Below, in pieces: positions 1,086-12,158 of a stretch of DNA of 42,706 nt (the first letter of the stretch is position 1; every line of letters starts with the position of its first letter). Source of the DNA: a virus; IMG/VR virus record IMGVR_UViG_3300050821_004130, positions 1-42,706 of that record; one strand, written 5' to 3'. The notes beneath the pieces are model-generated. The model was not told the origin of the DNA, searched no databases, and worked only from the letters and a program-made list of their open reading frames with translations. A program made the position numbers and the translations under genes.

Positions 1086-1555
1086 CAATTGTCGCCTATT
1101 GCCGGATCTCGACCATCGATCAGAACCCGGAGTTGCAGTATGACGCGCTCAAGGCGGCCGGCTGCCAGAAGATGTTCCTCGAGCAGGCCAGCGGGGCAGA
1201 TCGCGATCGACCTGAACTTGCTGCTTGCCTTGACTTCCTTAGACGCGGTGACGTGTTGCTGTTCTGGAAACTCGATCGCCTGGCGCGCTCCACGGTTCAC
1301 CTCGGCCAGATCGCGGAAACCTGCCGTGCCAAGGGCGTCGACCTCAAGTGCCTCACGCAGCCGATCGACACCACGACGCCGACGGGAAAGCTGATGTTCT
1401 CGATCCTGGCCTGCTTTGCCGAGTTCGAGCGCGATATCATCGTCGAGCGCACCATGGCCGGGCTTGCCGCCGCGCGCGCTCGAGGACGGATCGGAGGCTA
1501 TCCGAAGGGGCGCAAGCGCAAGCAGGTACTGGTTCCGGCGGGTCCTGATGTATGA
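1082..1555 (+). CDS. Serine recombinase (resolvase) catalytic domain, without C-terminal HTH
   Basis: The 157-residue protein is a resolvase/invertase-type serine recombinase. The signature Y-C-R-I-S-T-x-x-Q places Arg8 and the nucleophile Ser10; the second active-site segment is W-K-L-D-R-L-A-R-S (Asp65, Arg66, Arg69), and Arg123 lies at the start of the long E-helix. Family members such as gamma-delta resolvase have about 185 residues and end in a helix-turn-helix. Here the protein stops about 20 residues after the G-R-I-G-G segment with a basic tail (K-G-R-K-R-K), so the DNA-binding domain is missing. It is coupled by ATGA overlaps on both sides, downstream to the large terminase. It may resolve genome multimers, or act in packaging with a partner that binds DNA. 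Confidence 0.9.
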   Translation: MTIVAYCRISTIDQNPELQYDALKAAGCQKMFLEQASGADRDRPELAACLDFLRRGDVLLFWKLDRLARSTVHLGQIAETCRAKGVDLKCLTQPIDTTTPTGKLMFSILACFAEFERDIIVERTMAGLAAARARGRIGGYPKGRKRKQVLVPAGPDV

Positions 1556-3405
1556 GCGATGAACTTGATATTGTGGAAACCGACAATGCGTTCGAACTGA
1601 CCTATCAGGGCGTCGCGCCGTTTCCGACCGAGAGATTTCTGAAGTTTCTTGCCAATCTCAAGGTGCAGAGCAAGGATTACGGTCTGGTGCCGTTCAAACT
1701 GCTTGGCTCGCAGCGCTACATCCTGAGTGAAATCGAGGAAGGGCTGGCGAGAGGGATCACCACTTTCGTAATTCTGAAAGCGCGGCAGCTTGGCGCCTCC
1801 ACCTTCTTCCTTGCGCTCGACATGTTCTGGGCCTTTGCCCACAAGGGTCTGCTTGGGGTGTTCATTACTCACAAGGAGGAAATGCGCGATGACTTCCGAG
1901 CCACAGTTGAAGTTTTTTTCGCGGAAACCCCGCCGAAATACCGGATCAACTACGTTCGGCATAACCGAAACCTTCTCATTCTCAAGAACGCCAGCAAATT
2001 CCGATATCTCATCGCCGGAACTAGCGAAGTTAGAAAAGGCGGTCTGGGTCGTGGTGGTGCAGCAAATTTTGTCCATGCCACAGAATGCGCATTTTACGGT
2101 AACGGTGACGACCTTGCGGAATTCCGCTCGCAAACATCATCGCTCTATCCGCATCGATTGCAGATCTACGAGACCACCGCGAACGGCTTCAACCACTTCT
2201 TCGACCTCTGGGAGCAGGCGCAAGCCGACCCGACCAAGAAAACCATCTTCGTCGGATGGTGGCGAGACGAGCGCAACCAGCTGCCGGTAAGCCATCCGTT
2301 CTTCAACAACTACATGCCGGACGGCATCAAGACCTCGCTGACGCCACTGGAGAAGAAGCGCATCAGGGAGGTACGCGAACTCTACGCGTTCGAAATTTCT
2401 CTGCAACAGATCGCCTGGTATCGCTGGCACCTGTCGGCGGAAAAGGATTCTGATCAATCGATGATGGATCAGGAATATCCGTGGACGGAAAGCGACGCTT
2501 TTGTCGCGACGGGATCGAAGTTCTTCACCACCGATGCCATGACCGAATGCATGCGGACTGCAAAAAAATCTCCGTTCCAGACATTCCGGTATAAGCTCGG
2601 GATGAAGTTCGAAGAAACCGAACTGAGGCAGGTAAAAGATGTGCGAGCTGAACTGCGTATTTTTGAGGATGCCTCCCGATTCGGATACTATGCGCTGGGG
2701 TGCGATCCGGCTTACGGAAGCTCAGACGAAGCTGATCGAAGCGTCATTAGCATCTGGCGTTGTTACGCAGACGCTCTGGTTCAGGTCGCTGAATATTGTT
2801 CGCCCCAGCCTTCCACCTATCAATGTGCATGGGTACTTGCACATCTGGCCGGCTACTATGGCATCACCTTCCTGATGCCGATCCTGGAAATGAACGGGCC
2901 CGGCCAAGCCGTGTTCGATGAACTGGAGAAAGTGAGAAAGTTTGCTTCCGAAATTCGTCCGCACGACGAAAACTATCACATCCGCAACATCCTCTCCAAC
3001 ATGCGGCACTATTTCTACAAGCGCATGGACAATCCCGGCGGCGGCGAGTTGTTGTATCAATGGAAGACGACGGAAGATCTCAAGCGACGCGCCATGAACC
3101 AGTTCAAGAACGCGATCGAACTGCATCGCATGATACCGCGCTCCGTGCCGCTGCTCGAGGAAATGCGCCGCATCGTCAATGACGGCGGCCATATCGGCGC
3201 CGAGGGCCGTGCCAAGGATGACCGTGTGATGGCCGCGGCGATGGCCTACCAGGCCTATAACACCTGGGTCCATCCCAAGGTGAAGGCGCTGGGCCTCACA
3301 CTGGAACGATCGGCCGATATCGAGGCCAAGGGCGGCACGCCGCCGCTCGATCGCGTCGTGATGAGCTACCTGAAGCGGGCCAACATCGGTCTTCCGACCG
3401 GATAG
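1552..3405 (+). CDS. terL: Terminase large subunit
   Basis: The 617-residue DNA-packaging motor: an N-terminal ATPase pumps DNA through the portal and a C-terminal RNase H-fold nuclease cuts it. The Walker A-like segment is K-A-R-Q-L-G-A-S-T (residues 76-84). A Walker B-like site is in V-H-A-T-E-C-A-F-Y. Nuclease acidic residues are Asp385 (in G-C-D-P-A-Y-G), probably Glu446 (I-L-E-M-N-G-P-G) and Asp556/Asp557 near the end. The length is normal for large terminases with both domains. It begins in an ATGA overlap with the recombinase gene and is followed by a zinc-ribbon gene and the portal. No separate, recognisable small terminase gene was found. Confidence 0.92.
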   Translation: MSDELDIVETDNAFELTYQGVAPFPTERFLKFLANLKVQSKDYGLVPFKLLGSQRYILSEIEEGLARGITTFVILKARQLGASTFFLALDMFWAFAHKGLLGVFITHKEEMRDDFRATVEVFFAETPPKYRINYVRHNRNLLILKNASKFRYLIAGTSEVRKGGLGRGGAANFVHATECAFYGNGDDLAEFRSQTSSLYPHRLQIYETTANGFNHFFDLWEQAQADPTKKTIFVGWWRDERNQLPVSHPFFNNYMPDGIKTSLTPLEKKRIREVRELYAFEISLQQIAWYRWHLSAEKDSDQSMMDQEYPWTESDAFVATGSKFFTTDAMTECMRTAKKSPFQTFRYKLGMKFEETELRQVKDVRAELRIFEDASRFGYYALGCDPAYGSSDEADRSVISIWRCYADALVQVAEYCSPQPSTYQCAWVLAHLAGYYGITFLMPILEMNGPGQAVFDELEKVRKFASEIRPHDENYHIRNILSNMRHYFYKRMDNPGGGELLYQWKTTEDLKRRAMNQFKNAIELHRMIPRSVPLLEEMRRIVNDGGHIGAEGRAKDDRVMAAAMAYQAYNTWVHPKVKALGLTLERSADIEAKGGTPPLDRVVMSYLKRANIGLPTG

Positions 3406-3438: not shown

Positions 3439-3900
3439 ATGTCGATTGGAGTGCTGCGTTCATGGATTTGCGAGAACTCGCGCTGCGGCGCGGGGTTTGA
3501 CGCCTGGGAAGCCAACCCTGAATGCCCGAAATGCCGCTGCGTGCGGGTGTCCTGGCGGCCGGCCGGGGGCCATATCGGCAACGGAGCCAAATCGGCAGAC
3601 AACGAATTGCGGATTCTGGCCGACGTGTTCCGGATGAACGACATGAATTCGGCGGATCGCGGGCGGGGCGCGAAGAAGGTCAACCTTCCCCCCGCCCCGG
3701 CTCCGTCCGGCGGCAACGTCCACACCTTTCAGGGTGGCTTCACCGCAGCGATCGATCCGGCCCGCGGCGCGCAATGCGTGCCAACCGCCAACAAAATCGA
3801 CTATAAGATCAAGGCCGGCACCGACAACCGCCTGGCTCCGAACAAGGCCTATCCCGGATTGAACGCCAACACCGTGGTCGAAGCCACGCATAAGCAATGA
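3439..3900 (+). CDS. Zinc-ribbon protein between terminase and portal
   Basis: A 153-residue protein with an N-terminal zinc ribbon (Cys-x4-Cys near residues 10-15 and C-P-K-C about 14 residues later). The remaining part is Pro/Gly/Asn-rich and looks extended. It ends in an ATGA overlap with the portal gene, so it is probably translated with it. Its place between terminase and portal suggests a role in packaging or head assembly, but no family is recognised. The ATG at 3439 is preferred; a TTG at 3430 is possible. No good Shine-Dalgarno sequence is seen for either. Confidence 0.75.
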   Translation: MSIGVLRSWICENSRCGAGFDAWEANPECPKCRCVRVSWRPAGGHIGNGAKSADNELRILADVFRMNDMNSADRGRGAKKVNLPPAPAPSGGNVHTFQGGFTAAIDPARGAQCVPTANKIDYKIKAGTDNRLAPNKAYPGLNANTVVEATHKQ

Positions 3901-5660
3901 TCATCCCAGACGAGCCCAAAAAGCAGTCGCAGTATATCCAGTGGGTGATCGATGTCTGCATGAACTCCAAGAAAGACCGCAAGGATCTCTACGACAAGCG
4001 CCGGCAATATTTTCTCTATGGCGGCACCGATTCGGACGATGTGATCTACAACAGGATCGAATCACATATCGATCTCGTCGCTTCCTTCCTGTACTCGCCG
4101 GATCACGCCGCGTTCTCGCTCTCCGCGCCGCTCAACTCGGAAGATGTGATCGTCAAGCAGTACATGGCAGCGCAGGACACGTTCAACAATGATTTCCGCG
4201 ACGCCGGCATGTTCGATTTTTTCGCCGACGGCATCATTGGCGCGTTGACCTATGACAGCATGATCCTGAAATCTGGCTGGTCGGACATCAACAACGACCC
4301 GACCTGCAAGCTGATCATGCCGTGGCAATTCGGCGTGTTCTCCGAGGAAATCACCGAGCTGGAAAGCCAGCCGGCCATGGTGCACGAATACTTCATCGAT
4401 TATGACAACGCGTGTGCGCGGCTGGCGCGAGCCGGCATGAGCCACATGATTCCGAAGTTGACCGTCGTCAACACGCCGTTCGAATCGCCCTATCCGGAAT
4501 TGATCACGCGCATGATCATCTCGGCGACCGGCGGCGAAAATCTCACCGGCAATGTCACCGGATCGGTCAACCCGACCTATTCCGGCCGGGCCACCTATCA
4601 CGCCAAAGTCGATCGCCCGCTGGTTGGCTTCCACGAAGTCACGATCTGGGATGACGAGTGCAGCGATTATCGCGTGTTCTTCATGATTGCACCGGGCATC
4701 GTCATCTCGGATTCCAAGAAGACCATCGACATCCTCAAGAAAACCGGAGAGTTCGCAGCGCAGCGAAAACAGCAAGAACAGTTCTACAACACCGACTGCA
4801 ATCCGTTTTTTCCGCGCGAGCATCCCTATACGCTGATCCGCCCCTATAACACCTACGAATATTTCTGGGGCAAGGCGCATATCGAATCGCTGATCCCGCT
4901 GCAAACCTGGTCGAATGAACGGCTGGAGCAAATCCACGATATCCTCGAACGGCAGGCCTATCCGCCGCGCGTCGGAAGTGGTTTCATGGGGCTGTCGGAT
5001 GAGAAGATGGATGCATTCGGCGGGGCCGATACCTGGGTGCTGGATCAGCTGCCGCAGGCTTCGATCAAGGAGTTATATCCGCAAATGCCGCCCGACATCT
5101 TCGCCGACTACATGTCGATTGGGCAATTGTTCATCGAGGCCTCCGGACTGACGGAAGTGCTGCAGGGGAAGGGAACCGCCGGCGTGCGCTCAAAGGATCA
5201 TGCCAAGCAGCTGTCGACCACCGGCTCAGGGCGAATCAAGAAGGCCGCCATCCGCCTTGAGGCGCCGCTGGTGCGGCTTGGCGATCTCACTTTCAAGCTC
5301 AATCAAAGAAACAACGACGAGGAAATCAAACCGGACCCCAAGGAAGACGGAAAGCCTGGAGATCCGTTCTACTATGCCAACATGGGCGGGGAGTATTCTC
5401 TACGGGTCGCTGGCCACTCGCATTCGCCGCTGTTCGCCGACGACACCAAGGAATTGGCGGCCGGCCTGTTCAAGGCGCAGGCGATCGACGCCGAGGGCCT
5501 GCTGCGGCTCATGAACCCGCCCGATCGCGACAACCTTATCCACGCGCTGCGCGCCCGTCAGAAAAAGGCCGCGGCCGCCCAGCTCAAGCGAATGCAGATG
5601 GGATTGCCCGAGCCCGGCGCCAAGACGAACGGCAAGGGACACGGCGCGGCGCACGCTTAA
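3897..5660 (+). CDS. Portal protein
   Basis: The 587-residue protein is read as the dodecameric portal at the head vertex through which DNA enters and leaves. Evidence is its position directly after terminase and before scaffold and capsid, its size, and portal-like sequence: N-terminal K-K-D-R-K-D-L-Y-D-K-R-R-Q-Y-F, a central W-x-N-E-R-L-E-Q-I-H-D segment, and an Ala-rich, basic C-terminal helix that is typical of portal barrels. It starts in an ATGA overlap with the zinc-ribbon gene. The HNH endonuclease gene on the other strand overlaps its last four bases. Confidence 0.85.
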   Translation: MIIPDEPKKQSQYIQWVIDVCMNSKKDRKDLYDKRRQYFLYGGTDSDDVIYNRIESHIDLVASFLYSPDHAAFSLSAPLNSEDVIVKQYMAAQDTFNNDFRDAGMFDFFADGIIGALTYDSMILKSGWSDINNDPTCKLIMPWQFGVFSEEITELESQPAMVHEYFIDYDNACARLARAGMSHMIPKLTVVNTPFESPYPELITRMIISATGGENLTGNVTGSVNPTYSGRATYHAKVDRPLVGFHEVTIWDDECSDYRVFFMIAPGIVISDSKKTIDILKKTGEFAAQRKQQEQFYNTDCNPFFPREHPYTLIRPYNTYEYFWGKAHIESLIPLQTWSNERLEQIHDILERQAYPPRVGSGFMGLSDEKMDAFGGADTWVLDQLPQASIKELYPQMPPDIFADYMSIGQLFIEASGLTEVLQGKGTAGVRSKDHAKQLSTTGSGRIKKAAIRLEAPLVRLGDLTFKLNQRNNDEEIKPDPKEDGKPGDPFYYANMGGEYSLRVAGHSHSPLFADDTKELAAGLFKAQAIDAEGLLRLMNPPDRDNLIHALRARQKKAAAAQLKRMQMGLPEPGAKTNGKGHGAAHA

Positions 5661-6166
5661 GGAAAATTGAGTCTGGCATATGGGCCAAAATATTTTACGG
5701 CTGCTTCGTCGTATTTTTTAGCCGCAAAAATTTCGTCGCGGAATCTTCCCAGCACAGTGTGCTTTCCATCGATCCTAATGTACGCCATCCAAACTTGTTC
5801 GCTCGTTACCCAACAAACTCCTTTATATTTACTAGTGCCGCCGGTTCGAGCGCGGGCGTTCTGACCATTTTGGCGGTTTGTAGCGGGTCTTAAGTTTTCC
5901 CTCCGGTTATCTAGTCCAACTCCGTTTTCATGGTCTACGCGGCCGTCAATCTGCAAAATCCTACGATGAAGTTTCATTTTATCGGCGACAGCATAAACAG
6001 ATTTTTTCTTTTTATTTTCATCGGCACTCCAAGCTCGCTCGCGGAGAAAGTGCGCGTCTTCTATCGATACGACAGTGATGTAGTTTTTTGTAAGAAGCGT
6101 CCATGCGGTCAAACCGCAGTTGCAAACGTGGACGGGGCGGGGTAGGTTCGTATTGGGCATAGTCAT
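5657..6166 (-). CDS. HNH homing endonuclease with AP2 DNA-binding domain
   Basis: The 169-residue protein has an HNH nuclease core in the middle (L-H-R-R-I-L, then V-D-H-E-N-G-V-G-L-D-N-R-R-E-N-L) followed by an AP2-like domain (Y-K-G-V-C-W, then L-G-R-F-x-x-E-x-x-A-A-x-x-Y-D-E-A-A). This domain order is classical for free-standing phage homing endonucleases, which cut homologous genomes lacking the gene so that it spreads. It is the only leftward gene in this part of the late region and overlaps the portal stop by four bases, as expected for an insertion. The first part (about residues 1-60) is not assigned. Confidence 0.9.
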   Translation of the reverse strand: MTMPNTNLPRPVHVCNCGLTAWTLLTKNYITVVSIEDAHFLRERAWSADENKKKKSVYAVADKMKLHRRILQIDGRVDHENGVGLDNRRENLRPATNRQNGQNARARTGGTSKYKGVCWVTSEQVWMAYIRIDGKHTVLGRFRDEIFAAKKYDEAAVKYFGPYARLNFP

Positions 6167-6195
6167 CCTCCAATGATGATTTGCTCACGGGCGTG

Positions 6196-6216
6196 TCAGA
6201 GTGGTGGTCACTCTGA
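6196..6216. promoter_or_regulatory. 8-bp perfect stem-loop upstream of the micropeptide
   Basis: TCAGAGTG and CACTCTGA form a perfect 8-bp stem around a five-base loop. There is no T-run after it in either direction, so it is not a standard terminator. It lies between the divergent HNH gene and the micropeptide gene and may be an operator, an mRNA processing site or a stabilising 5' structure. Confidence 0.5.
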
Positions 6217-6251
6217 TTCCGACCGGACTATCCTATCACAGGAGAAGTCAG

Positions 6252-6299
6252 TTGAAACGCAAACACAAAAGGGGTGGACGCAAGCATAGGCGCAAGTAA
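6252..6299 (+). CDS. Candidate 15-residue, extremely basic micropeptide
   Basis: The frame TTG-to-TAA encodes MKRKHKRGGRKHRRK: 12 of 15 residues are Lys, Arg or His. It has a strong Shine-Dalgarno sequence, AGGAG at 6239-6243, eight bases before the TTG, and an intrinsic terminator follows 28 bases after the stop. A random stretch is unlikely to give only basic codons between such signals. It sits between the portal and the small head genes, so a nucleic-acid-binding or head-interior role is a reasonable guess. No family is known to me. Evidence is from sequence only; translation is unproven. Confidence 0.5.
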   Translation: MKRKHKRGGRKHRRK

Positions 6300-6326
6300 G
6301 CCAATGCCGTCTACCTAATACAGCAG

Positions 6327-6360
6327 CACCCCGTCCCCTCCCGGCGGGGTGTTTGTTTTT
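6327..6360 (+). terminator. Intrinsic terminator after portal/micropeptide
   Basis: CACCCCG (6327-6333) pairs with CGGGGTG (6345-6351), followed by TTTGTTTTT. This is a good Rho-independent terminator for rightward transcription. It lies inside the head operon and would reduce read-through from terminase-portal into the scaffold-capsid genes, implying a promoter downstream or partial termination. Confidence 0.8.
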
Positions 6361-6405
6361 CAACGGCTTGACGAGGGAACTGAAAGCGGCGTACTAATCG
6401 CGGCC

Positions 6406-6834
6406 ATGGATCAGCCATCGTCACCGCTTGCACCGCCGCCCGAGCCTCCGGGAGGCGCGACAGCGTTGCCGAAGTCGCCGGCCGGGGGGCCGGCGGGTCC
6501 CGGCAGCTCGCCGATGATGTCGCCGGGCGCCGGCGCCGGCAACAAGGCCGCCGCAGTCCAGACCGTGAAGGCGATCATGCCCGCAATCCTCAAGGCCGCC
6601 ATGGCGTTCGAGGGCGGTTCGAAAGAGCAGCAAGCGCTGCTGCGTGCGATGTCGTCGCTCAATCCAATTTTCGGGAAGGCAGAAGGCGCCAACATGGTCC
6701 CGGCGGGCCTTCAACAGTTGGCTATGGCCAACAAAGCGGGGTCGATGTCCTCGGCCCCGCCGCCCGGCCTCGTCTCGAACAATGCCCCGCCGCCCGGCAT
6801 GGGCGCGCCAGAACCGCAAGGAGAAGCTGCATGA
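6406..6834 (+). CDS. Pro/Gly/Ala-rich small head-region protein
   Basis: The 142-residue protein begins with a Pro/Gly/Ala-rich, probably unfolded stretch (to about residue 50). A short helical domain follows (residues 50-105, Val-Lys-Ala-Ile-Met-Pro-Ala-Ile-Leu-Lys-Ala), then another Pro-rich tail. The ATG at 6406 is used because earlier in-frame codons overlap the terminator; no clear Shine-Dalgarno is seen, which leaves the start uncertain. It ends in an ATGA overlap with the next gene. Similar low-complexity proteins sit between portal and scaffold in many short-tailed phages; function unknown. Confidence 0.7.
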   Translation: MDQPSSPLAPPPEPPGGATALPKSPAGGPAGPGSSPMMSPGAGAGNKAAAVQTVKAIMPAILKAAMAFEGGSKEQQALLRAMSSLNPIFGKAEGANMVPAGLQQLAMANKAGSMSSAPPPGLVSNNAPPPGMGAPEPQGEAA

Positions 6835-7053: not shown

Positions 7054-7593
7054 ATGGCCGATCCGCAATTCGATCCCGCCGTCGCCAACGATCTGACCGC
7101 GCTGTTCCTCAAGCTCAGTCACGATCCGAAAACACGCAAGATCATTGCGAAAGCGGTCAAGGAAGGCGCGCCGGACTCGCGGCACGCTCAGGCGTTCGCC
7201 GACGTTGATGTCGACGACAAGTTCGAGAACTTCCGCAAAGAGCAGGAAGAACGCGAACTGAAGCGTGCGCAGGACGAAATGCTGCGCCAGATGAATGCCA
7301 AGCGCAACTCGCTCTTGGTCGGCGGTCCCGATGGCGAAGGCCGAAAATATTCCGAAGACGACATCAAGAAGATCGAAGACCTGATGTCGAAAAAGGGCAT
7401 CGTCGATTACGATGACGGCGCGACGCTCTACGCCGCCACCCTGCCGCCGGTCGATCCGGCCTCCAGCTATGAGCCGCCGTCGCACGGCGCCACCTGGGAA
7501 ATTCCCGAGTTCGCCAAGTTCGGCACCGATCCGGTCAAGGCGTCGCGCGATACCGCGCACGCGGTCATTTCAGAATTCATGAGGAAGCGTTGA
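7054..7593 (+). CDS. Probable scaffolding protein
   Basis: The 179-residue protein is highly charged and mostly helical, with a predicted coiled coil in the middle (about residues 50-85, rich in Glu, Lys, Arg: K-E-Q-E-E-R-E-L-K-R). It lies after the portal and before the major capsid gene, the usual place of the scaffold that shapes the procapsid and then leaves. Family identity is not recognised by motif, so the call rests on position and composition. Its TGA overlaps the ATG of an inserted HNH endonuclease gene, which separates it from the capsid gene. Confidence 0.65.
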   Translation: MADPQFDPAVANDLTALFLKLSHDPKTRKIIAKAVKEGAPDSRHAQAFADVDVDDKFENFRKEQEERELKRAQDEMLRQMNAKRNSLLVGGPDGEGRKYSEDDIKKIEDLMSKKGIVDYDDGATLYAATLPPVDPASSYEPPSHGATWEIPEFAKFGTDPVKASRDTAHAVISEFMRKR

Positions 7594-8060
7594 TGGCGCC
7601 TCCGCGCAAATTTCCGGTGATGCTACGTGATTGCGAGTTCTGCGGGACTCCAATCGATAGCGCTTATATCACCAAGCGCGGATACAAGAGGGGACGCCAC
7701 GGCGGAATTCGCTATTGTTCTCGCGTATGCGCAAACCGAGGCCGAGAGAAAAAGGTAAAGATTGATCGTCACGGATATGTCTACACGTATCCCGAAGGAT
7801 GCACCCGGAAAGACCAGCGGCAGATTTATGAGCATCGTCTGGTGATGGAAAAAATTATTGGTAGATCACTGACCAAGAATGAAACCGTTCACCACAAGAA
7901 CGGCATCCGGCACGACAACCGCCCGGAAAATCTTGAATTGTGGTCTACCCGCCACGGCAAAGGTCAGCGAACGAGTGATTTAACCCCGGCATGGAAACTT
8001 GGCGCCGCCTATCTGGCAGGAGTTTTGGCTGGAAAACAGGGAGCATCCCTCGGGGTGTGA
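7593..8060 (+). CDS. HNH endonuclease with N-terminal zinc finger
   Basis: The protein has about 155 residues. It starts with a zinc-finger-like region (C-E-F-C-G, then Y-C-S-R-V-C), followed by an HNH core: Y-E-H-R-L-V-M-E, then E-T-V-H-H-K-N-G-I-R-H-D-N-R-P-E-N-L-E-L-W. Such genes spread by cutting unoccupied sites. The ATG at 7593 overlaps the scaffold stop (TGATG) and GAGGAA lies upstream; a TTG at 7590 is an alternative. It sits between scaffold and major capsid genes without breaking either, so it may be co-transcribed with them. Confidence 0.88.
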   Translation: MAPPRKFPVMLRDCEFCGTPIDSAYITKRGYKRGRHGGIRYCSRVCANRGREKKVKIDRHGYVYTYPEGCTRKDQRQIYEHRLVMEKIIGRSLTKNETVHHKNGIRHDNRPENLELWSTRHGKGQRTSDLTPAWKLGAAYLAGVLAGKQGASLGV

Positions 8061-8065
8061 TATAA

Positions 8066-9076
8066 ATGCCACAGTTGGGCAGCGGAATTATTCCGGCCAA
8101 CGGCGCCATCGCCGCAGAATTATCCTCCGTCGTGCGCCGCGCCTTCATGCCGCGGGTCTATGTCCAGCTCTGGAAGTCGGCGCCGCTGATGGCCGCACTA
8201 TTGTCCTCGGCTCAGGTCGCGACCGGCGGTCTGTCGCCGATCACCGCGCCCCTGCAGGGCGCACCGATGGTGTCAGGGCAGTGGGTGGATTATTCCGGCT
8301 CGTTCCAGCAGCCCGGAGTCCAGCCCGGCATCCAGAACGCCGAGTTCAACCTCAAGGCTTTCGTCTCGACGATCCCGTTCCTCGGGATGGAAGGTCTGGT
8401 GCAGCTGGACTATTCCGTGGTGCCGCTGATCGAAGCGCGCATGAATGATTCCACCAATGTCACTATCGACACCTTCGCAACCTCGCTGTTCAACAACGTT
8501 TCCAACAGCCAGCAGCTGATCGGTCTTCCGGCCGCGATCGACGACGGCACGTTCGCCGCGACCTATGGTGGCGTATCGCGCACCACCAACACGTTCTGGA
8601 AATCGACCTACGTCCATAACGGCGGCACCACGACGCCGACCCGCAACCTGATGCTGCAATACATCAGCCAGGTCTCCAAAACGACCGGCGAAATGCCGAC
8701 CATCGGCATCATGGGGTTCGGCACCTGGACCCTGCTGGCGCAGGATTTCACCAGCCAAGAGCGCTACAACATCACCCCCGGCAGCGCGTTCGGTGCCGAC
8801 AACAAGGCGCAGTCTCTGTTCCGCGCGCTGGATGTGGCCGGCGTACCGTTCTACGCCGATCCGTACTGCCCAGAGGGCACGCTCTACTTGATCAACACAA
8901 ACTATTTGAGCCTGTTTCTGCATGAACGGGCCGCATTCTCCTTCACCGGGTTCGAATCGACCCTGCCGAACAACCAGCTCGGCTATATCGGCGCGATCCT
9001 ATCCCTGCTAGAGCTTGTCGACGTGAAATGCAAGGCGCACGGCAAGTTCGACGGTCTCGCGTTCCTGAACATCTGA
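8066..9076 (+). CDS. Major capsid protein (probable HK97 fold)
   Basis: The 336-residue protein follows the scaffold gene and an inserted endonuclease, the expected place for the main shell protein. An N-terminal helical stretch with V-Y-V-Q-L-W-K-S-A-P-L-M, a central domain with an N-T-F-W-K-S segment, and a C-terminal receptor of E-L-V-D-V-K-C-K fit capsid proteins of the HK97 type. No protease gene was seen, so maturation by cleavage is not implied. Confidence comes from size and order; the fold is inferred. Confidence 0.82.
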   Translation: MPQLGSGIIPANGAIAAELSSVVRRAFMPRVYVQLWKSAPLMAALLSSAQVATGGLSPITAPLQGAPMVSGQWVDYSGSFQQPGVQPGIQNAEFNLKAFVSTIPFLGMEGLVQLDYSVVPLIEARMNDSTNVTIDTFATSLFNNVSNSQQLIGLPAAIDDGTFAATYGGVSRTTNTFWKSTYVHNGGTTTPTRNLMLQYISQVSKTTGEMPTIGIMGFGTWTLLAQDFTSQERYNITPGSAFGADNKAQSLFRALDVAGVPFYADPYCPEGTLYLINTNYLSLFLHERAAFSFTGFESTLPNNQLGYIGAILSLLELVDVKCKAHGKFDGLAFLNI

Positions 9077-11285: not shown

Positions 11286-12158
11286 GTGTTCTGGCTCGGC
11301 GCATCCCTGCCTGTCCTGAACTGGTTGAGTTTCAGCCTCATTGCGTATTTTCATATAACCGCGCGGGCCCTCACCGGCCCATGGTTCTTCCTGCTACTAG
11401 CGCTCGCGTTCTGGCTCGGGTCCGTCATCACGCTGCGGCCAGTCTTTCGCGGCCTTGCGATCGGGCTGTCGGTTTCGTCCGTCGTCGCGATCGGGCAATG
11501 GTTTGACTGGATCGCTCCTGGAAGCGCCAATCCGCCCGGCGGGCTACTGTATAATTCCGGCGTGCATGCCATCGCCATCGCGATCGTCATTTTGGGGCTG
11601 CTTGCAAACAGGGACTGGCGTTTCATCCCGGCCATGATGCCGGGCCTTCTGCTGTCCCAGTCTCGCGGCGGGTATCTGGTGCTGGCAGTCGGGATCGCCG
11701 CGCGCGCCCTCGGCTGGCCCGCCGTCGTTCTCATGGTGGGGATGGCGGCGGCGGTTTCATTCGCGGTGATGGGGACAACCGATGCCCACCGCCTGCTGAT
11801 CTGGAGCGCGACATGGAACGACCTCGAATGGCTCGGGCACGGCGCCGGCTCGTTCGCCAATGTGCTGTTCTGGCATGGCGATGACCTGCATTATCCCGGT
11901 CACGTCCATAACGACTATCTGCAGCTCGCCTATGAACTCGGCATCTGGGCGGCTCCCGTCTATCTGGTCTATGCTGCGGCGCTGATCCGGATACGCTCGC
12001 CCTATTGGCCGGCCTTCGCGGGATTTGCCGTGGCCGGTCTGTTTTTCTTTCCGCTCTATGCGCCGGTGACGGCCTTCATCGGTGCCGTGCTTGCCGGACA
12101 TATCGCCTGCGATCATGATCGTGTCAAATTCTGGAAAACCGTAAATGCTACTGTCTGA
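11286..12158 (+). CDS. O-antigen ligase/polymerase-like (Wzy_C-type) membrane protein
   Basis: The 290-residue protein is largely hydrophobic, with about eight likely membrane segments. Motifs of the Wzy/WaaL superfamily are present: S-Q-S-R-G-G-Y-L (124-131), R-L-L-I-W (159-163), G-H-G-A-G-S-F (174-180) and the periplasmic-loop H-V-H-N-D-Y-L-Q-L-A-Y-E-L-G (196-209). Bacterial members have about 400 residues, so N-terminal helices are missing. They join sugar repeat units to lipid A core or lengthen O-chains. It uses GTG, has AAGGCGGGAG upstream, and overlaps the tail adaptor by 14 bases. Embedded among virion genes, it may change the host surface to block superinfection or help release. Confidence 0.85.
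   Translation: MFWLGASLPVLNWLSFSLIAYFHITARALTGPWFFLLLALAFWLGSVITLRPVFRGLAIGLSVSSVVAIGQWFDWIAPGSANPPGGLLYNSGVHAIAIAIVILGLLANRDWRFIPAMMPGLLLSQSRGGYLVLAVGIAARALGWPAVVLMVGMAAAVSFAVMGTTDAHRLLIWSATWNDLEWLGHGAGSFANVLFWHGDDLHYPGHVHNDYLQLAYELGIWAAPVYLVYAAALIRIRSPYWPAFAGFAVAGLFFFPLYAPVTAFIGAVLAGHIACDHDRVKFWKTVNATV

Follow-up and report, generated by a model that had tools for sequence, protein, structure and literature searches.

The window analyzed here, a virus record from IMG/VR with a length of 42,706 bases, encodes a micropeptide, MKRKHKRGGRKHRRK, 3' of a portal gene of the T7-type head-tail connector family (Table 1). Twelve of its 15 residues are Lys, Arg or His, and the gene consists of the codons TTG AAA CGC AAA CAC AAA AGG GGT GGA CGC AAG CAT AGG CGC AAG TAA, with 7 nt separating the Shine-Dalgarno sequence AGGAG from the TTG. 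An earlier note on this DNA had pointed to a TTG frame with a strong Shine-Dalgarno and 12 basic residues, a perfect hairpin upstream and an intrinsic terminator behind it. All these features were recovered, the hairpin (TCAGAGTG-GTGGT-CACTCTGA, 6196-6216) being the inner part of a larger conserved element. The same note placed the peptide between portal and scaffold, which holds for the position 3' of the portal but not for the direct neighbors: an antisense endonuclease gene intervenes on the portal side, and the next gene encodes a Pro/Gly-rich protein. A tRNA scan found none.

Table 1. Features of the micropeptide locus and of the surrounding genes in the window.
Feature	Position	Strand	Basis and remarks
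TerL	1552-3405		phrog_2
Portal (T7-type head-tail connector family)	3897-5660	+	phrog_332, E=3.5e-4; "portal protein" in related GenBank records
Free-standing HNH_3 + AP2-like endonuclease gene	5657-6166	-	between portal and micropeptide
Promoter-like site TTGCAA-N17-TAGGTT, micropeptide transcript	6120-6148	+	comparative scan; overlaps 5' end of HNH gene
Leader RNA element GGGCG-(2 nt)-variable helix-(3 nt)-CG[A/C]CC	6189-6224	+	covariation; covariance-model match; RNA fold
Shine-Dalgarno AGGAG	6240-6244	+	sequence; SD-like purine stretch 5' of ORF in nearly all relatives
Micropeptide gene	6252-6299	+	TTG start to TAA stop; reading frame, relatives, selection
Intrinsic terminator, micropeptide transcript	6325-6361	+	terminator search
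Promoter of next gene, TTGACG-N18-TACTAA	6368-6398	+	8-9 nt before ATG; layout common to 19 of 61 loci
Pro/Gly-rich protein, next gene	6406-6834	+	no PHROG match
Scaffold-like protein	7054-7593		
MCP	8066-9076		phrog_9953

Shine-Dalgarno-preceded ORFs of 11-21 aa with at least 60% Lys, Arg and His occur once in the 42.7 kb of the window. In 605 kb of related loci, searched on both strands, such ORFs are confined to the micropeptide site, except for two hits that are tandem partner peptides; the filter was chosen after the family had been seen, but the background count is independent of that choice. Among 145 codon differences in 22 disjoint pairs of relatives (pairs rather than a full phylogeny), 100 (69%) are synonymous, 24 are basic-for-basic exchanges (Lys/Arg/His) and 21 are other, whereas placing as many changes at random gives an expectation of 20% synonymous and a maximum of 29% in 1000 simulations. 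Substitutions at the three codon positions number 52, 37 and 124, and the five codons after the start codon that differ between the window and its nearest relative, L022, differ synonymously in every case. At the level of sequence, these comparisons demonstrate protein-level selection on the micropeptide, and the window copy is a genuine gene, far from chance. Across the 62 aligned members, Lys, Arg and His make up on average 82% of the residues excluding Met, and 60 members contain no D, E, F, W, Y, I, L or V after Met, which makes a folded globule or a membrane peptide appear very unlikely for the clade 1 short forms.

Portal relatives taken from IMG/VR, 46-83% identical to the window portal (clade 1), carry a Lys/Arg/His-rich peptide of 11-30 residues, usually 13-16, at the same site; of the loci with sufficient flanking sequence, only L001 and L084 yielded none. 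In L001, a reading frame resembling the protein encoded at window positions 11286-12158 directly follows the portal. The short form lies 3' of the portal, preceded by a Shine-Dalgarno, in 58 clade 1 loci (for example, MKRKHKRGHRRSRRK, MAKRRHRRGGRKHRRK, MARRKGRRGRKHRRK and MARRGRRHRRGRRR); seven further loci encode longer forms with a variable N-terminus and a basic C-terminus of the same kind, up to the 30-aa MTSAEIKATIAARENAQHGRKRRGRRHRRK of L096, and L092 adds one that starts with ATA. The stops, frameshifts and ribosome-site losses that the earlier note had named as grounds for dismissing the gene were sought in these relatives, and nearly all retain both frame and Shine-Dalgarno, with the basic codons conserved through synonymous change. 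Nearly all the sequences are metagenomic, and several loci are near-identical (60 distinct ORFs among 62). Because of synonymous divergence, the initial 33 nt of the window ORF had no exact DNA match in IMG/VR; a degenerate MKRKHKRG pattern identified nine stretches, all on contigs already obtained through their portals. In L067, another basic micropeptide, MTKFRRRRGRRMSRRY (~1940-1995), comes after the first, and the two look like a tandem pair within clade 1.

Nearest in GenBank are MW202825 and MW202753, whose portals are 31% identical to that of the window and which encode two micropeptides in tandem between the portal and the next head gene (MYKKHKRSRKTRR and MARKARKTRKGRK in MW202825). 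None of these peptides is annotated, as the earlier note had expected of annotation pipelines, and the MW202825 annotation places an antisense hypothetical CDS across both. Any gene caller with a larger minimum ORF size would likewise miss such a core phage gene of ~15 codons. A search with an alignment of the distant portals added 80 IMG/VR loci (clade 2, with portals ~30% identical to that of the window). Both tandem peptides are present in 66 of the 75 clade 2 loci examined, the two GenBank records included, a typical pair being MYKKMKRGRKTRR followed by MRKARKGRKSRK or MARKARKGRKARK. One more micropeptide, MARGRKHKRGAKR, is encoded in L098, a contig that carries the label of an Actinomycetes MAG and whose portal shares 28% identity with that of the window. 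By these comparisons, the micropeptide spans two deep lineages of uncultured short-tailed phages and, because it is found 3' of the portal across clade 1, clade 2 and L098, is a near-universal core gene, alongside TerL, portal and MCP, of a large uncultured podovirus group. No such peptide was found in GenBank phages with a distantly related MCP, namely Mx8, Mx9, BUCT555, ppBjS10J-1, Mwe-JY13, a TM7 phage, two other Manatee Spring genomes and an unannotated faecal clone; the peptide is therefore not a general need of dsDNA heads.

The leader of the clade 1 gene is a conserved RNA element. The 20 aligned leaders have one order in common: an invariant GGGCG, 2 nt, an inner helix free in both sequence and length, 3 nt, and CGACC or CGCCC (the pairing in L004 was assigned by eye). 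Of the cells counted for this structure, 93.5% are paired, and both sides have changed in 34 cells, compared to a mean of 10.4 in shuffled alignments, none of 500 of which reached this value; the covariation score is 0.508, and sliding the partner yields no more than 0.09. In the outer stem, nine sequences have G-C as the middle pair and 11 have G.A. Thus, the hairpin is conserved by compensatory changes. The covariance model matches the window at 6186-6232 with E=1.9e-7, the window being among the sequences from which the model was built, and the fold of 6155-6361 has z=-5.4. In 482 kb, consisting mostly of partial genomes, matches to the model at E<0.05 lie solely upstream of the peptide gene.

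A different element occupies the spacer between the tandem peptides of clade 2 (L099-L178; L025, 7852-7928; L026, 4800-4877; aquatic lineage). It can be read as an H-type pseudoknot, in which a first stem of GGG/CCC type (AGGG/CCCT, CGGG/CCCG, GAGG/CCTC or TGGG/CCCA) is interleaved with a second helix (for example, GGCUGACUU/AAGUUGGCC, GGCUGCUU/AAGUGGCC and GGCUGGCUC/GAGUUGGCC). The mean length of the second helix is 6.75, compared to 4.45 with partners swapped. This assignment is less secure than the clade 1 hairpin because the script found merely five second-helix pairs in about one third of the sequences and none in four. Rfam yielded no gathering-level match in the window, where matches at 6120-6420 were at chance level only, and none at E<=1 in seven relatives. 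Both leader RNAs are new structured elements with no Rfam match.

Promoter-like sites are located 45-200 nt 5' of the ORF in 34 of 61 loci, compared to 2.8 expected by shuffling; the site in L022, TTGCAT-N17-TACCCT, was identified by eye. A strict consensus promoter scan found nothing in the window, the TTGCAA/TAGGTT site being missed by the strict score and recovered at a looser comparative threshold. Strict terminators follow within 130 nt 3' of the stop in 32 of 60 relatives, compared to 0.1 in shuffles. Hence, in the window and in many relatives, the micropeptide forms an autonomous unit that consists of a promoter-like site, structured leader, ribosome site, peptide and terminator. The next gene, that of the Pro/Gly-rich protein, has its own promoter and shows the micropeptide to lie outside the scaffold/capsid operon. 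In 18 relatives and in the window (6368-6406), a promoter of the form TTGAC-N17/18-TATCAA/TACTAA extends to within ~6-10 nt of the Pro/Gly-rich gene's ATG, without a Shine-Dalgarno; the mRNA of that gene is probably leaderless, a trait conserved across the lineage.

Portal and micropeptide are jointly inverted relative to TerL, and directed away from the scaffold, in L002, L005, L008, L012, L013, L014 and L021; the capsid-side genes also run opposite to the inverted cassette in the five loci with MCP in view and in L002, where the view is partial. In L051, L054, L055, L067 and L081, portal stop and peptide gene overlap by 14-29 nt, which leaves no room for a leader. The joint inversion and the overlapping loci therefore indicate that the peptide goes with the portal, needs no leader and is not a scaffold-operon attenuator. 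The linkage to the portal could also be mere adjacency.

The neighboring endonuclease gene matches Pfam HNH_3 with 25 bits, above the cut-off, and AP2 with 19.9 bits, below it. This gene is not present at this site in most relatives, and its HNH domain together with sporadic presence at one site fits a free-standing homing endonuclease. It resembles the T4 seg/mob HNH homing endonucleases in being an intergenic endonuclease gene beside a conserved gene; the comparison concerns this neighbor, whose cleavage activity is putative, and not the micropeptide. Of the 62 aligned members, 58 start with ATG, so that the TTG of the window is unusual. Where an HNH_3/AP2 gene lies within ~115 nt, the micropeptide starts with TTG (window, 6252), ATC (L022, 8363), ATA (L092, 4588), GTG (L094, 6834) or ATG (L034, 7360), that is, four of five starts are non-ATG, compared to one of 58 elsewhere (L037, GTG). 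The Fisher test, run with 57 and uncorrected for relatedness, gives p=4e-5 for a correlation that was found after looking, in metagenomic assemblies. The start-codon changes look independent because the carriers show different non-ATG codons. Intronless homing involves cleavage away from the site of insertion (PMC2988022). We hypothesize that the endonuclease targets the conserved start region of its neighbor and that carriers escape by altering the start. If so, this would be a testable case of a mobile endonuclease shaping the translation initiation of a neighboring gene. Given the TTG, ATC and ATA starts, expression of the micropeptide may be weak in the window, its nearest relative and L092.

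What the peptide does can be approached through two known proteins. Like the micropeptide, J of phiX174 (Microviridae) is a small, highly basic phage protein; it is longer, and its C-terminus binds the capsid. About 120 copies of J coat the replicative form, and J guides the genome inside the capsid (PMC13386984). It belongs to a T=1 ssDNA virus with no gene context in common, whereas the peptides described here, of 11-30 aa, are encoded by tailed dsDNA phages; instead of the microvirus gene context expected under descent from J, the window genome has TerL, a T7-type portal and a tailed-phage MCP. The adenovirus core peptide X/mu, with 19 residues, is arginine-rich, is present in ~100-300 copies per virion and helps condense dsDNA (PMC7998265). 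In this unrelated virus, protease cleavage of a ~79-aa precursor releases mu, whereas the micropeptide gene encodes the basic peptide alone. The peptide is short, highly basic and virus-encoded, as well as a core gene of the head/packaging module, all features of a J- or mu-type condensing peptide. We infer that it works like phiX174 J or adenovirus mu, being a member of neither family.

We consider it about an even chance that the micropeptide, made abundantly and in a controlled dose, binds nucleic acid in head assembly or DNA packaging in a way similar to J or mu. This functional reading is drawn from composition, neighborhood and core-gene status; a role in packaging or head filling appears most likely because of the core-gene status in the head module and the link to the portal. 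The peptide would be made in quantity during head morphogenesis, late in infection, and would bind nucleic acid without sequence specificity, the most likely target being the phage DNA as it enters or fills the procapsid through the portal. Its effect would be charge neutralisation or tethering, as with J and mu. Located ~12 nt before the ribosome site, the leader hairpin or the clade 2 pseudoknot-like element most likely sets the amount of peptide, which it would do by acting on mRNA stability or on translation, or through feedback from the peptide itself.

The RNA elements make an RNA target worth considering: the peptide might be an arginine-rich RNA-binding peptide acting mainly on its own leader hairpin (autoregulation) or on nascent transcripts, as an N/boxB-like antiterminator. 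Lambdoid N is a longer early antiterminator. The likeness to N-peptide/boxB lies in the pairing of a short, arginine-rich peptide with a nearby RNA hairpin (PMC11480772). The micropeptide differs in being a head-module gene with the hairpin seen, in the mostly partial genomes searched, in its own leader only, and in surviving without it. An RNA target would fit the covarying hairpin directly 5' of the ribosome site, with its internal loop and conserved GGGCG/CG[A/C]CC stem, its occurrence nowhere else in 482 kb among the matches at E<0.05, and the pseudoknot-like element before the second peptide in the second lineage. However, the peptide is kept without any leader in the five loci where it overlaps the portal, similar peptides occur in both lineages despite the different RNA topologies, and the terminator of the unit leads into nothing where the next gene is convergent; we consider this reading, although it is the main rival, unlikely. 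Leader binding, in particular, seems unlikely as the core role because the peptide persists where the leader is absent. That the transcript is mainly a structured non-coding RNA, such as a packaging RNA, with an incidental ORF, would agree with its short autonomous form, the strong fold and the covarying leader, but the codon-position pattern and synonymous excess indicate that the peptide is selected, and several members keep the ORF without the RNA part, which leaves this possibility only a slim chance.

Polycations can compact the nucleoid, hit the ribosome or the membrane, and act as antimicrobials, and a host-directed peptide with any of these effects is thus conceivable. It is nevertheless quite improbable for a core head-module gene of two deep lineages, which differs in this respect from accessory takeover genes, and for short forms that, in clade 1, almost all lack hydrophobic residues. 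The intrinsic terminator close behind the basic codons could suggest an attenuator leader peptide, in which stalling at Arg/Lys codons would control the terminator and hence the scaffold/capsid operon. We rejected this explanation as highly improbable: the next gene has a separate promoter 3' of the terminator, a convergent TerL is the next mapped gene in seven loci, the unit lies on the opposite strand in L061, and the frame is selected as a protein. Finally, an untranslated chance intergenic ORF, compatible with a TTG start and only 15 codons, is contradicted by the conservation, the background count and the synonymous excess, and was rejected as having negligible probability.

The first reading, a "tiny nucleic-acid-binding or head-filling peptide", is still the best and is supported, the molecular function being inferred. 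Beyond it, the comparison adds the covarying leader, its pseudoknot-like counterpart, the tandem duplicate, the co-inversion with the portal and the HNH/start-codon link. More tentatively, and on balance doubtfully, these deeply conserved, very short genes, mostly of 11-16 codons, might encode free-standing protamine-like peptides that are obligatory for head filling in a large and widely sampled group of dsDNA tailed phages, with the dose set by the leader and a homing endonuclease parasitising the gene start. Tailed phages are the textbook cases of naked-DNA packaging by motor force; if the peptide is in the virion, this would be a tailed-phage lineage using protamine-like peptides.

Several further observations concern the surrounding genes. 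The MCP is ~80-95% identical where the portal is merely 50-70% identical, an unusual contrast within one head module. The product of window positions 11286-12158, in the virion gene region, shows a weak match to O-antigen ligase (Wzy_C), below the Pfam cut-off. A second HNH_3 gene recurs just 5' of the MCP gene, in the window (7590-8060) and in L008, L048, L055, L059, L066, L067, L092, L093 and L094.
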